A stretch of 54,473 nucleotides of DNA. It comes from Chthonomonadaceae bacterium. Its GTDB lineage: Bacteria; Armatimonadota; Chthonomonadetes; Chthonomonadales; Chthonomonadaceae. A model generated the notes under the pieces. The model had not been told where the DNA came from. It did not search any database and worked only from the letters and a program-made list of their open reading frames with translations. The stretch is taken from contig JANWZQ010000042.1 of assembly GCA_025054835.1 (NCBI GenBank), positions 1 through 54,473 on the forward strand, written 5' to 3'. Below, piece after piece: positions 3,709 to 9,234 of the stretch. Made by a program: the position numbers and the translations under genes. The first letter of the stretch is position 1. The number at the start of each line of letters is the position of its first letter.

Positions 3709-5040
3709 TCACGCCATGTCGTTCAGGATCGCCAGAAGAGTCGGCACCAGCTGTTTCTTGCGGGAGACGATATCTTCCAGATCGTATTCGTGATTCGAGA
3801 TCCGTGTGAAGGGCAGGGCAGCGAGGATCCGGTTCTCGCCCTGGCAGAGAAGACGGCTCCGTCCCGTGATCACATCGGTGATCATCAGGGCGATCAGAGA
3901 GAGGCCTTCCCGGTTGAGCCGCGTCTGCATGGCTTCCAGGATCTCTTCCCGGCGATCCGGCAGTTCCTGAAAGCCTGTGACCTCGACCTGCGCGATGCTG
4001 ACCGGGCTGCCACCCATCTGATACGCCTTGCGATCGGCATCGAGGATCTCGTCTGCTGAACGCGCGGCCAGGCCCGGTGCGGCGCGCAGCAGCTCCTCGC
4101 CGTAGGGCACGATCTCAATCCGGGCCAGCTGCGCCAGCCAGAGCGCAACCTTCTCATCGCGCTCGGTGGCAGTGGGGGAGCGAAACAGAAGGGTATCTGA
4201 AAGGATGCCGCTGAGCAATACGCCGGCCAGACTGGCCGGAGGCGTCAGATTGCGCGCCTGACACTTCTCGGCAACCAGCGTGCTGGTACTGCCGACCGGA
4301 TCGATAACAAACGGGATAGGAAGCGCCGTCGGTGCGTTGCCCAGACGATGATGATCCAGAACGCCCACGATTTCCGCCTCATCCGCGTCCGGAACAGCCT
4401 GCGCAATCTCGTTGTGATCGACCAGAAACAACCGGGCACGGGGAGGGTTCAGGATCACCCGACGGGTAGCAATGCCCACGTACTGACCGGTGGCGGAGAC
4501 GACGAGAAAATCGTCCGTTTCGGAACGGAGCAACGCATTGCGGTGATCGCTGATGCGGTCATGCTCGAAGAAAGTTGGCGCGTGGGTAGCAATCTCCCGG
4601 CAGGGCTGCGCGAGCATCACTGTCACGTTCACCGGCGCCGTGTAGGCCCGGGCCAGCGCCAGCGAGGTCACAACCCCTACAGGTTTACCGTTCTCGTCCA
4701 CGACCGGGATCACCCGGTCTCCTTCTGCGACACGTGCCATGGCCGCAGGCAACGCGGCATCCGGCGGTACGGTCTTCTGAGGGGTCGCCGCATGTCCGAA
4801 AGTGGGTGCGACTCCGGTTAGCAGACGGGGAGGGGGCTGCTCGAAACGTTCCAGAACAAAGGCGGCCTGCTCGTTGGGTTGACCGGCGCGCGCCGCCACA
4901 ACGTCTTCCTGACCGATCTGTTGCAGGTACCATGCGTAGCCCAGTGCCGCAGCGATCGCATCCGTGTCCGGGCGCTGGTGCCCGATGACGTAGGTGACGT
5001 CCGGGCTCCATGTGTCCATCTTGTCTCTGCTGGCGTTCAT
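3709..5040 (-). CDS. ppaC: manganese-dependent inorganic pyrophosphatase with CBS pair
   Basis: Family II (DHH) pyrophosphatase hydrolysing PPi to phosphate in the cytoplasm. The catalytic DHH domain shows GHQRPDTDA (His21, Asp25, Asp27), VDHNE (207-211) and LDHHRLGN (DHH at 229-231); the DHHA2 domain follows. Residues ~84-198 between strands are an inserted CBS pair, the nucleotide-sensing module of CBS-PPases; I see no DRTGG domain, consistent with 443 rather than ~550-660 residues. Start chosen at ATG 5040; a consensus TATAAT ends only six bases upstream, so the message may be leaderless. ATG at 5021 is the alternative. Followed by the serine hydrolase. Confidence 0.93.
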   Translation of the reverse strand: MNASRDKMDTWSPDVTYVIGHQRPDTDAIAAALGYAWYLQQIGQEDVVAARAGQPNEQAAFVLERFEQPPPRLLTGVAPTFGHAATPQKTVPPDAALPAAMARVAEGDRVIPVVDENGKPVGVVTSLALARAYTAPVNVTVMLAQPCREIATHAPTFFEHDRISDHRNALLRSETDDFLVVSATGQYVGIATRRVILNPPRARLFLVDHNEIAQAVPDADEAEIVGVLDHHRLGNAPTALPIPFVIDPVGSTSTLVAEKCQARNLTPPASLAGVLLSGILSDTLLFRSPTATERDEKVALWLAQLARIEIVPYGEELLRAAPGLAARSADEILDADRKAYQMGGSPVSIAQVEVTGFQELPDRREEILEAMQTRLNREGLSLIALMITDVITGRSRLLCQGENRILAALPFTRISNHEYDLEDIVSRKKQLVPTLLAILNDMA

Positions 5041-5046
5041 GTTTCT

Positions 5047-5052
5047 ATTATA
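5047..5052 (-). promoter_or_regulatory. TATAAT -10 element directly ahead of ppaC
   Basis: On the minus strand TATAAT is separated from the ATG at 5040 by six bases. Transcription from such an element would begin at or next to the A of the ATG, predicting a leaderless mRNA. I see no good -35 hexamer 16-18 bases further upstream. Confidence 0.5.
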
Positions 5053-5144: not shown

Positions 5145-5200
5145 CTGAATGAAAATTTAATCTGTGCTTAACATGCGCTTAATAGTCTGGCCAGTATAAT
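5145..5200 (+). promoter_or_regulatory. Pho-box-like array of four 11-bp-spaced hexamers with TATAAT
   Basis: Four hexamers start at 5145 (CTGAAT), 5156 (TTTAAT), 5167 (CTTAAC) and 5178 (CTTAAT), each separated by exactly five bases. A perfect TATAAT follows at 5195-5200, 11 bases after the last hexamer, and no -35 element is needed in that geometry. This is the arrangement of PhoP-type boxes (6-bp repeats, 11-bp period, four copies) bound by OmpR-family regulators. It lies between the divergent ppaC gene and the prepilin operon and points toward the latter. Confidence 0.6.
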
Positions 5201-5279
5201 GCACGGCAATGTCAGGACCGATGTCCCGGGCATTGCGCGGACGCTACTATGCTGCAGGGGATCGGGCAAGGAGGTACTC

Positions 5280-6167
5280 GTGGGATCGTTGTTATTGTCG
5301 CGACATGTCGCGCGCAGAGGTTTCACCCTGATCGAATTGCTGGTAGTAATCGCAATCATTGCCATTCTGGCTGCGATCCTCTTCCCGGTGTTCGCACAGG
5401 CCCGGGAACAGGCGCGGCGCGCTACCTGTCTGTCGAACATGCGTCAGCTGGGCAACGCGTGGTTGATGTACGCGCAGGACTACGATGAGCGGCTTCCCAA
5501 GACCGGGAACGGACGTCCGAACGAGGGCGAGGATACGGTGGGCGAGCCGTACCTGCTCCAGCCCTACATCAAGAGCATTCAGATGTTCTTCTGCCCGAAC
5601 CGCATGACCAGGTACTGGGAGTGCTGGTCGATCGAGAACCAGGGTGGCATCCCGATCACTGTTCCGATCGAGCAGCGGACCTCACGGTGCTTCGGATACG
5701 GAACGAACTTCGGACTCTACGACTATCGCTCTGGCAACGGCATCTGGGGGCCAGCACAGGCGGAAACTGCGCCGTGGGGCGGTACGCTCTGGGTGGGACG
5801 CTACCTGTCCGAATTCCCGACGCCGGCGCAGTGCGTGCTGCAGGGTGACTCTAACGATGAACCACCTGCCACGCTGACGCCCTACTTCCAGGGAATTGAT
5901 GGCACAACTCCCGGCGTCGTGCGACATAACGGGATGTACCAGTATTCCTTCGTAGACGGTCACGCCAAGTCAATGCCCGTCGCGGCGTACAGCATGGCGC
6001 GTGCCGCCGCAGGCTCATTCACGATCATGCCGAGGCGTCGGGAAGATCTGCTCATGTTCTGTCGCGACCCGGACAACATCGCGCAGTTTGAGTTCCGCTT
6101 CGCACAGGGCCGTACCTGCGCGCAGACCGTGGACCAGATCCTCTTCCGACGCGACGAGCTGCGCTGA
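5280..6167 (+). CDS. prepilin-like protein with H-x9-DG domain (DUF1559 type)
   Basis: Secreted or pilus-like protein processed by a type IV prepilin peptidase. Start chosen at GTG 5280, four bases after AAGGAGGT; the open frame extends to 5199. The leader ends RRGFTLIEL: cleavage after Gly14, Phe15 at +1, Glu19 at +5, followed by a ~20-residue hydrophobic helix. The H-x9-DG element is at His216...Asp226-Gly227. 295 residues, normal for the family. Such proteins are numerous in Armatimonadota and Planctomycetota; whether they form filaments or serve secretion is not known. First gene of a + strand operon with the next three genes, behind the Pho-like array. Confidence 0.9.
5316..5404 (+). repeat. 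prepilin-leader DNA repeat, copy 1
   Basis: 89 bp encoding the leader and hydrophobic helix. It matches 6454-6542 at all but four positions by my alignment, whereas the rest of the two genes has diverged. Confidence 0.85.
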
Positions 6168-6182: not shown

Positions 6183-6395
6183 ATGAAGCAGAAGATCCAC
6201 CCGGTTGTGGCGGTTGCGCTCATCGTGCTGGCAGTTGTCGGCGCAGGAGTGTACCTGACGCGCCTGATGAATTCTGGAGTGGTGGGTAAGGAGTACCGGC
6301 CCGGTGAAAAACCTTTCGTCAACCGGAATCTGGACACTCCGGAAGACGAAACCGCGCGTGATGCCGAGCGCACCGGAGACCCGGATGGCAAGTAG
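6183..6395 (+). CDS. small single-span membrane protein between two prepilins
   Basis: 70 residues from ATG 6183, with GGGAG at 6173-6177 and a five-base spacer; the open frame begins at 6168 but that start has no ribosome site. One membrane segment at about residues 6-27 (PVVAVALIVLAVVGAGVYL), then a charged, Asp/Glu/Pro-rich tail of ~40 residues. No family recognised. Its place 15 bases after one prepilin gene and 37 bases before another suggests an accessory role at the membrane for those proteins, but that is only context. Confidence 0.75.
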   Translation: MKQKIHPVVAVALIVLAVVGAGVYLTRLMNSGVVGKEYRPGEKPFVNRNLDTPEDETARDAERTGDPDGK

Positions 6396-6432: not shown

Positions 6433-7092
6433 ATGATGGCAATGGGCAAGCGGAGAGGCTTCACCCTGATCGAATTGCTGGTAGTGATCGCAGTCATTGC
6501 CATTCTGGCTGCGGTCCTCTTCCCGGTGTTCGCACAGGCCCGTGCGAAGGCACGTCAGGCTGCCTGCGCAAATAACACACGCCAGCTGGCAACGGGCCTG
6601 TTGCTGTATGTACAGGACTACGATGAGACCCTGCCTCCCGTCGCATACGAGATCGATGTGAACGGGGAAGAGGAGGAAGTACTCTGGAGCGATCTGGCCG
6701 CGCCTTACCTGAAGAATGAGCCAGTCCGGCGTTGCCCGGATGACGCGCTGGCCCGGGGTAACTCCTACGGTTTGAACGAGCTGGCGTTTGCGGACCTGGC
6801 GGACGAGGAGGGTGAACGGGCGCCCATCCGGATCCTGGCGGCTTTCCGTACCCCCGCGGAGACGGTGATGCTGGGCGACATCGGCACGGAAGACGATCTG
6901 CGCACCCCGCGTCCGGACGCGTACAAGATGGTTGCGCCCTCCTTCCCGCTGAACGATGACGAAGATGCCCGGCCCTCCGCGCGGCACTTTCTGCGGGTCA
7001 ATCTGGCTTTCATGGATGGGCATCAGAAGCCCTGTCGACTGGAGCAGTTCTATCTGGGACAACAACCACCGGATCGATGGTTCGAGCCCTGA
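6433..7092 (+). CDS. second prepilin-like protein with H-x9-DG domain
   Basis: 219 residues, shorter than its neighbour. ATG 6433 (followed by a second ATG) leads [15 protein letters not shown]: predicted cleavage after Gly9, Phe10 at +1, Glu14 at +5. The hydrophobic helix runs to ~30, the globular part starts FPVFAQAR, and H-x9-DG is at His185...Asp195-Gly196. The middle is strongly acidic (EEEEV, DEEGE, DDED). The leader-coding DNA is almost identical to that of the first prepilin, pointing to duplication or gene conversion. The ribosome site is weak (AGGACGG). Confidence 0.88.
6454..6542 (+). repeat. prepilin-leader DNA repeat, copy 2
   Basis: Partner of 5316-5404; four differences in 89 bp, all A/G or T/C transitions. 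Confidence 0.85.
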
Positions 7093-7119
7093 GGTGTAAT
7101 GCTGCTGCAAGGAGCAGGT

Positions 7120-7806
7120 ATGGCAAGCGAGTATGATCTGACACCGGGCATCTCCTGGCCAACCATTCTCTATCGGTGCAAATGGCGGGAGCATAACTCA
7201 GAGGCACCGGGGATCATCGAGCATCTTTACCAGATCCGGGCCCGATATACGCAGAACATCGCCAGCGAGGTAGCCCGATCCGCAAAGTCCAGCTACGGGT
7301 TGTTCGAAAGCCCGTTTGACCTGCTCGAGACCGATCATGCTGGACTGAAGAAACTGCGTGCGTTCATCGAAGAAGCGTTACAACTGGCAGTTTCCCATGT
7401 GAACGGGGCGCAGGTGCCCCCGGAACGCATCCAGCCCATCATTGTAGACAGCTGGTTCCATATCACCAACGACGGGGGGTACCACGACGCGCACTTCCAT
7501 GCCCACTGTTCCTGGTGCGGCATCTACTACCTTCAGGCAGGAGACAGCACAGCTGTGCCGGACCAGGGCGCCGGAAATGGGGTCAACCGCTTCTATTCTC
7601 CATTGACCTTTGCCGGTGCGTTCAGCGACTACGGCAACCATTATCTGAGTTCCAACCGGATTGATATCGTTCCTGAGGACGGTGTGCTGATCCTCTTTCC
7701 CGCATATCTGTTGCACAGTGCTCTGCCGTATCGGGGCCGGAAGGACCGGATCGTGATCTCTTTCAACAGCCAGTCTGTGCTGCGGGAAAGCGATGGTGTT
7801 GCATAG
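7120..7806 (+). CDS. putative 2OG-Fe(II) oxygenase (TIGR02466-like)
   Basis: 228 residues from ATG 7120, with AAGGAG at 7109-7114 and a five-base spacer (the open frame at 7099 lacks a site). The C-terminal half has the double-stranded beta-helix pattern of the TIGR02466 family: SWFHI, then HDAHFHAHC (residues 122-130) supplying the His/Asp iron ligands, GIYYL, LLHSALPY (distal His199) and Arg210 in DRIVISFN for the 2-oxoglutarate carboxylate. The family has no firmly known substrate. It is the last gene of the prepilin operon, 27 bases after the second prepilin, so hydroxylation of a small molecule or of the operon's own proteins are both open. Confidence 0.78.
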   Translation: MASEYDLTPGISWPTILYRCKWREHNSEAPGIIEHLYQIRARYTQNIASEVARSAKSSYGLFESPFDLLETDHAGLKKLRAFIEEALQLAVSHVNGAQVPPERIQPIIVDSWFHITNDGGYHDAHFHAHCSWCGIYYLQAGDSTAVPDQGAGNGVNRFYSPLTFAGAFSDYGNHYLSSNRIDIVPEDGVLILFPAYLLHSALPYRGRKDRIVISFNSQSVLRESDGVA

Positions 7807-7810
7807 AGAG

Positions 7811-7849
7811 CTTAACGCAAAATTAAAGTCCGCATAATCTCCAATTAAT
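7811..7849 (+). promoter_or_regulatory. second Pho-box-like array, ahead of the dockerin-protein gene
   Basis: Hexamers at 7811 (CTTAAC), 7822 (ATTAAA), 7833 (CATAAT) and 7844 (ATTAAT) with exactly five bases between them, i.e. four copies at 11-bp period as at 5145-5183. The -10 element is less clear here; TATTTA at 7849-7854 or AAAATA at 7861-7866 are candidates. The rest of the 195-bp intergenic stretch shows nothing I can name. Confidence 0.55.
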
Positions 7850-8001
7850 ATTTACCTCTCAAAATAACGAGCGCACAGGCGGTTATGGCGCTGTGACGAT
7901 GCATCAAGTCCGAGTGAGACAATCCGCTCAGCGATCCGAGCAGTACGCAGAGAGCGTGTGTTCCACTCAGGAAAGGTTCTTAACTGAGGAAGGAGTGCTC
8001 G

Positions 8002-9234
8002 ATGAAGAACGAAGCAATGAAGATTGCTCCTGCTGCAGTACTTGCTGGCGCTGCTGCTCTGATGTCCCCTTCAGGAAGCTCGGCGCAGGTCAACCTGTTC
8101 TCGGAGGATTTCGAGAACCTGACGCCAGTGCTCCGCCAGTTCGTAGACGAAACCCCGGCGCGGACCGGGAACCGCACGCAGCCCTGGGTGGGGCAGGGGG
8201 TCTGGACTCACTTCATGCCACTGGGTTGGACGCGTGACGACTCCGGAGTGCCGGGGCAGGGCGCACGGGAGTGGGCCGGGTGGTCCTTCGCCAACAAGGA
8301 CTTCTGGATTGCGGCAGCGAACAACCAGAACCGCATTCAGTACACCCGGGGGCAGAACATCGTCGCGATCGCCGACCCGGACGAGTATGACGACTATCGT
8401 GGCGGGATCCCCGGCAACGCCTACTACAACGTGTACATGACCACCCCGGATATCTACATTGGCGCGGTCGCTCCAGCTTCCCTGCGTCTCATCTTCGACT
8501 CCAGCTGGCGCCCCGAGGGCTTTGATGATGGCAGTCCGCAGGACAACAATCAGACCGCAATCATTCGTGCCTCCTACGATGGGGGACAGACGTGGACCGA
8601 GATCCTGCGGTGGGACTCGGATGTGTTCAGCGACTTCTTCAAGCCGGACGCTACCAACGAGAATGTGTCGCTGGTGCTGAACCCGCCTTCCGGCGCGACC
8701 ACTGTGCGGTTTGAGTTCGCATTGATCCTGGCGCGCAACGACTGGTGGTGGGCAATCGATAACCTGCGCGTTACCGGGAACCCGGTGGCGAATGCGCGCT
8801 CCATCTCCGGCACGGTGACCCGCGCGGATGCTTCAGGCCCGTTCGATGCGCGCTTCGTGCTGACGCCCACCGACGGCAGTGGCGCCATCACGGTGTTCGG
8901 TAAGGTGGCGGCCAATGGCAGCTTCACCGTCCCGGCTGTGCCCAACAAGAACTATCAGGTACGTGTCAAGGCCGGGAACACGCTCTCCCGTGTGGTGAAC
9001 GCCAACGCGACCGCTGGCAACGTGACCGGTTTGACCATCGCGCCCCTGCTGGGTGGCGATGCTAACGATGATGACAGCGTGGACCTGTTCGACCTGGCGG
9101 CGTTGATCGAAACGTTCGACGCCGATGTGAACACTGACACCTACCGCCCCGGTCCTGACTTCAACGCCGATGGGATCGTGGACCTGCTCGATCTGGCGAT
9201 CCTGATCGGCAACTTCGACCAGAGCGGAGAGTAA
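8002..9234 (+). CDS. secreted protein with jelly-roll-like domain and dockerin-type C-terminus
   Basis: 410 residues; ATG 8002 preceded by GAGGAAGGAG. Signal peptide at 1-28 ending SSA|Q. Residues ~30-260 look like a choice-of-anchor/MAM-type beta-sandwich (LFSEDFENL at the start; WWWAIDNLRVTG at the end). Residues ~265-345 are a carboxypeptidase-regulatory-like beta domain (SISGTVTRA...GSFTVPAVPNKNYQV). The last ~60 residues contain two dockerin-like calcium loops, DANDDDSVDLFDLA and DFNADGIVDLLDLA, a type I dockerin pattern. No enzyme motif seen. Exported or surface protein, expressed from its own Pho-like promoter region and closed by a terminator. Confidence 0.82.
   Translation: MKNEAMKIAPAAVLAGAAALMSPSGSSAQVNLFSEDFENLTPVLRQFVDETPARTGNRTQPWVGQGVWTHFMPLGWTRDDSGVPGQGAREWAGWSFANKDFWIAAANNQNRIQYTRGQNIVAIADPDEYDDYRGGIPGNAYYNVYMTTPDIYIGAVAPASLRLIFDSSWRPEGFDDGSPQDNNQTAIIRASYDGGQTWTEILRWDSDVFSDFFKPDATNENVSLVLNPPSGATTVRFEFALILARNDWWWAIDNLRVTGNPVANARSISGTVTRADASGPFDARFVLTPTDGSGAITVFGKVAANGSFTVPAVPNKNYQVRVKAGNTLSRVVNANATAGNVTGLTIAPLLGGDANDDDSVDLFDLAALIETFDADVNTDTYRPGPDFNADGIVDLLDLAILIGNFDQSGE

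Follow-up and report, generated by a model that had tools for sequence, protein, structure and literature searches.

The window, i.e. the whole stretch of 54,473 nucleotides analysed here, contains at positions 5145-5183 a repeat array, a putative operator and in all probability a genuine switch for phosphate starvation (Pho box). The pilin-like genes behind it seem to belong to the phosphate-hunger response of the cell. The whole proposal, in which this Pho box is bound by a PhoB/RegX3-type regulator encoded on contig C47 and switches on a prepilin operon at low phosphate, seems to us likely to hold. Its observed part comprises the sequence, the spacing, the genome-wide repetition, the arrays at pstS and some regulator genes of relatives and the shared phosphatase targets.

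Results

The repeat array and the genes around it

Direct reading of the sequence confirmed the preliminary description, which had reported four hexamers at an exact spacing of 11 bp and, 11 bases further on, a TATAAT. The reported absence of a -35 element was borne out by a consensus scan, which detected no sigma-70 -35/-10 pair at 5145-5200. Scored on the window sequence, the array agrees with YTTAAY x4 at 23 of 24 positions and is the best 11-bp array of the window. A Pho-type operator should comprise two to four direct half-sites with an 11-bp period and should lie about 10 bp 5' of the -10 element, where it replaces the -35; the array has this architecture, with N11 to the TATAAT. The features in this region are:

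5145..5183, + strand, putative Pho-box array, CTGAAT (5145-5150), TTTAAT (5156-5161), CTTAAC (5167-5172) and CTTAAT (5178-5183), period 11 bp
5195..5200, + strand, -10 element TATAAT, 11 bases past the last repeat, no -35
5268..5274, + strand, probable ribosome-binding site AAGGAGG, read from the sequence
5280..6167, + strand, DUF1559 prepilin-like gene, first of the operon, GTG start (N_methyl PF07963, PF07596, TIGR02532)
6183..6395, + strand, small membrane protein of 70 aa, called by codon score only
6442..7092, + strand, second prepilin-like gene, start at 6433 or 6442 (TIGR02532)
7099..7806, + strand, putative 2OG-Fe(II) oxygenase (PF13759)
7811..7849, + strand, second, weaker array, CTTAAC (7811), ATTAAA (7822), CATAAT (7833) and ATTAAT (7844)
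8002..9234, + strand, exported protein with a dockerin-like C-terminus, behind the second array (PF00404, 24.0 bits, cut-off 22.9)
3709..5040, - strand, divergent manganese-dependent inorganic pyrophosphatase (DHH-CBS-DHHA2), likely start 5040
5047..5052, - strand, the pyrophosphatase's own probable -10, TATAAT (5052-5047), just upstream of its start

The start of the first gene is most likely the GTG at 5280 behind AAGGAGG and not the ATG at 5199; the ORF listed from that ATG begins inside the -10 element. The oxygenase at 7099-7806 has no relatives among 60 related genomes and was possibly acquired recently. The second array matches YTTAAY x4 at 20 of 24 positions, and its -10 is poor (CAAAAT, 7860-7865, at N10).

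It had also been suggested that the array perhaps controls the divergent pyrophosphatase, and this idea was not supported. The array, about 90 bp away from the likely start of that gene, is directional, with a -10 in register solely on the + strand. Furthermore, the pyrophosphatase has its own TATAAT beside the likely start, and there is no sign of activation from the array. The gene is probably outside this array's control.

Arrays with an 11-bp period recur throughout the genome

Among periods of 6-19 bp other than 11, no array scoring at least 18/24 was found in the window. A search of the window for YTTAAYN5YTTAAYN5YTTAAY with up to 3 mismatches gave 3 matches where 0.06 were expected, and none of 100 shuffles reached 3. 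Over the full 3.7 Mb of the genome, this pattern of three repeats had 20 matches versus 0 for the reversed pattern. The array plus its -10 (TTAAN7TTAAN{11,13}TANNNT) occurred 17 times genome-wide versus 0 times when reversed, and TTAA x3 with one mismatch 46 times versus 4, counts that include both strands of a near-palindrome. The genome-wide matches collapse to about 20 array promoters; the reversed patterns give 0-2. These shuffle and reversed-pattern controls, the single preferred period and the conservation of pstS sites across families (see below) contradict an origin by chance, in which AT-rich intergenic tracts or a UP element would have landed at 11 bp. Although the upstream regions are AT-rich and the subsites of UP elements have a similar spacing of about 11 bp, we regard chance as extremely improbable.

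In 15 arrays of the genome that were picked without regard to any -10, TATAAT (at least 5/6) was found at N10/N11 past the last repeat in 10; neighbouring spacer pairs that share neither 10 nor 11 had at most 1 array with a -10 each. This spacing is the geometry of PhoB-activated promoters.

One strong array with a perfect TATAAT lies between two convergent genes (G000:C138:38378-38432; L025:6379-6433, minus strand) and reads antisense into an epimerase-like gene. Since no clear ORF starts there, its product may be a small RNA or an antisense RNA.

Related genomes carry such arrays ahead of pstS

We searched 60 related genomes for PstS and for the array. Arrays scoring at least 18 were present upstream of pstS in 16 of 44 cases, versus 13 of 967 other windows of the same loci (p = 4e-16); at this cut-off more than half of the relatives' pstS genes have no array. 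The pstS site of genome G003 reads CTTAAT-TTTAAC-CTTAAC-CTTAAA, then TATACT (CTTAATCTAAATTTAACGCGCTCTTAACATTACCTTAAAACGCATTGACTATACT), and another example comes from G009 (TTTAACCTGCCCTTAACATTTTCTTAACATTGTGCGGGTTATACT). A matrix trained on the relatives' pstS promoters alone gave the 5145 array 17.5 bits and rank 1 of all window positions; the best window site outside it, in the 7811 array, reached 8.6 bits. G027 belongs to another family; there, arrays stand before pstS, directly before phytase, and before two phosphoesterases and several prepilins. Between G027 and the window genome the phytases share 66% identity and the phosphoesterases 70%, and both proteins come from array-led operons.

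The check proposed earlier, enrichment of arrays at phosphate genes, thus gave a positive answer: the motif stands ahead of pstS in relatives and ahead of the genome's own phytase, glycerophosphodiesterase (GDPD) and phosphoesterase operons. On the basis of these sites, of the arrays at some regulator orthologues and of the rank under the pstS matrix, the 5145 array is a putative Pho box of the cyanobacterial (CTTAAC) type.

In G030, from the same order as the window genome, many contigs carry dispersed TTAATGNACAGTTAATG elements in many copies. They contain TTAATG twice, 11 bp apart, and are a separate, REP-like repeat family.

A PhoB/RegX3-type candidate regulator

The genome encodes only two ordinary OmpR-family DNA-binding regulators, on contigs C47 and C177. 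The C47 protein is of the PhoB/YycF/RegX3 type, and its paired kinase is closest to PnpS and PhoR. Both fall below the NCBIfam equivalog cut-offs (regulator: PhoB, TIGR02154, 263.4 vs 296.2 and YycF 270 vs 340; kinase: PnpS 379 vs 400 and PhoR 309.7 vs 334.2); the sub-cut-off PhoB score touches the name of the regulator, not the class of the operator. Among solved structures, the regulator is closest over its full length to RegX3 of Mycobacterium, and its DNA-binding domain is closest to YycF, RegX3 and E. coli PhoB. The recognition helix is near-identical in the C47 regulator (YVEERTVDVHVRWLRE) and in E. coli PhoB (YVEDRTVDVHIRRLRK).

Orthologues of the C47 regulator occur in nearly all relatives. 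In 12 genomes (G008, G013, G020, G021, G023, G026, G029, G030, G032, G035, G038 and G053) no more than 6 kb separate the best homologue from pstS; in G008 this homologue is directly behind pstB. An array precedes the orthologue's own gene in G006, G013, G021 and G029, and by position in G034, which resembles autoregulated phoB genes. In the window genome no array stands before the C47 regulator gene, and the gene is not pst-linked. The OmpR-family regulator that a Pho box calls for is present as a PhoB-type protein with a PhoR-type kinase, and the pst linkage is found in relatives. Together with the relatives' pstS arrays, the genome's own phosphate-gene arrays and the PhoB-like geometry, this regulator supports the original assignment of the array to the Pho-box class.

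PstS, PhoU and PiT had no family match in the 97%-complete assembly. The pst genes form one operon in relatives, so one assembly gap could hide all of them. Because the cell needs some route of phosphate import, a pst operon hidden in this way is no less probable than a true loss.

The second regulator raises another explanation, namely that the array is a PmrA/QseB/CusR-type operator through which C177, a heavy-metal OmpR-family regulator, answers metal or envelope stress. The half-sites of PmrA, CTTAAG/XTTAAT with 5 bp between them, are almost identical to the present hexamers and share their period (PMC3973317), and YTTAAN half-sites 5 bp apart are indeed present in the array. In relatives, however, the arrays accompany pstS and the C47-type regulator genes, and C47 homologues lie inside the pst cluster. 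The best models for C177 are heavy-metal regulators; with 192 bits against a PmrA cut-off of 330 the genome has no PmrA-type regulator by this model, and no array adjoins the C177 genes. We consider control by C177 unlikely and retain the C47 regulator as the candidate for the Pho box.

Genes behind the arrays

The array-led genes and operons of the genome include:

C84, prepilin and beta-propeller phytase (PF02333), operon
C163, two prepilins and a YVTN/phosphoesterase (PF04185), operon
C150, glycerophosphodiester phosphodiesterase (GDPD, PF03009)
C74, organophosphate-antiporter-like (OPA-type) transporter and TIGR03364 oxidoreductase, operon
C73, regulator, prepilin and sulfatase, operon
C125, prepilin and 3-keto-disaccharide hydrolase, operon
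C163, Alginate_exp outer-membrane protein
C38, dockerin and FG-GAP proteins
Window, from 5280, + strand, prepilin - small protein - prepilin - 2OG oxygenase, operon

Many of these genes have no evident phosphate role. A DUF1559/prepilin gene is first behind 9 of the approximately 20 arrays (hypergeometric p about 6e-12 for 19 arrays and an assumed total of 3300 genes), and the genome contains 57 prepilin motifs. This association could mean that the array is a generic DUF1559 prepilin promoter, which serves a dedicated pilin regulator and has no tie to phosphate. Yet among the 55 prepilin promoters examined an array or a remnant occurs in about 12 and is absent from about 43, so the array is not a general prepilin promoter. 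There are also pilin-free array targets, i.e. pstS and phytase in relatives and GDPD here. We reject the generic promoter as very improbable; the Pho box remains the preferred reading.

Inspection by eye indicated that prepilin genes commonly precede one exported protein and that the array-free ones precede other kinds. We infer that pseudopilin-like proteins may go together with specific secreted enzymes, and that the pseudopilins related to phosphate may now be under the Pho box.

At the genome's own DUF1559 loci (L227-L266), most prepilin-like genes are followed by one exported protein, which differs between loci (TPR, PQQ-like, PEP-CTERM-like and others), as though every pilin-like gene had a cargo of its own.

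Discussion

Proposed mechanism and meaning

The binding, the activation and the phosphate signal are the part of the proposal that we infer. The four 6-bp half-sites with their 11-bp period would bind copies of the phosphorylated C47 PhoB/RegX3-type regulator head to tail, and the regulator would work with the PhoR/PnpS-type kinase. The last half-site, 11 bases before TATAAT, would stand in for the -35, and the bound regulator would recruit sigma-70-type RNA polymerase. Phosphate shortage would in this way turn on the prepilin - small protein - prepilin - 2OG oxygenase operon; the weaker 7811 array would do likewise for the exported dockerin protein.

We suggest tentatively, and with rather less than even confidence, that the phosphate-starvation regulon of this phylum is built from cassettes in which a Pho box is followed by a DUF1559 prepilin-like gene and then by a secreted phosphatase or another exported protein, with the prepilin-like proteins helping to export or display the enzymes. 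If true, this gives DUF1559 proteins a testable role. In the four papers of the searched library that mention DUF1559, phosphate is no subject of the titles or abstracts. A subset of these numerous prepilin-like proteins is here tied to phosphate starvation, which provides a concrete condition for a search for their function. From sequence alone, the analysis also defines a putative Pho regulon in a little-studied group, together with the operator and the probable regulator.

Comparison with known systems

The Hxc system of P. aeruginosa is a phosphate-controlled type II secretion system, in which starvation induces secretion parts along with secreted phosphatases. Its likeness to the present case is one of idea only: here we find single DUF1559 prepilin-like genes and not a full secretion operon. 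SenX3-RegX3 has been named as the mycobacterial phosphate system (PMC4415409). Its resemblance to the present case was assessed at the level of the regulator protein, RegX3 against the C47 regulator. The PmrA box shares CTTAAT/CTTAAG half-sites with a 5-bp gap (PMC3973317), but it has two half-sites and other target genes. In E. coli, PhoB recognizes direct repeats of 11 bp that lie some 10 bp before the -10 element (PMC1906773, PMC4415409). The E. coli Pho box thus shares with the present arrays the direct repeats and the distance to the -10, in addition to the near-identical recognition helix of its regulator; its half-site is CTGTCAT-like, whereas that of the arrays is CTTAAY.

The cyanobacterial SphR Pho box consists of three copies of CTTAACCT with a 3-bp linker, as in pstS2 of Synechocystis (CTTAATTCtatCTTAATTTcgaCTTAATCA), and it shares with our arrays the hexamers, the 11-bp period, three or more repeats and the position before pst genes (PMC1906773). 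In contrast to the SphR case, the host is, as far as can be told, not a cyanobacterium, and the operons behind most arrays encode prepilins or exported proteins. What is new here is the cargo, i.e. Pho-box arrays that drive a DUF1559/prepilin gene first.
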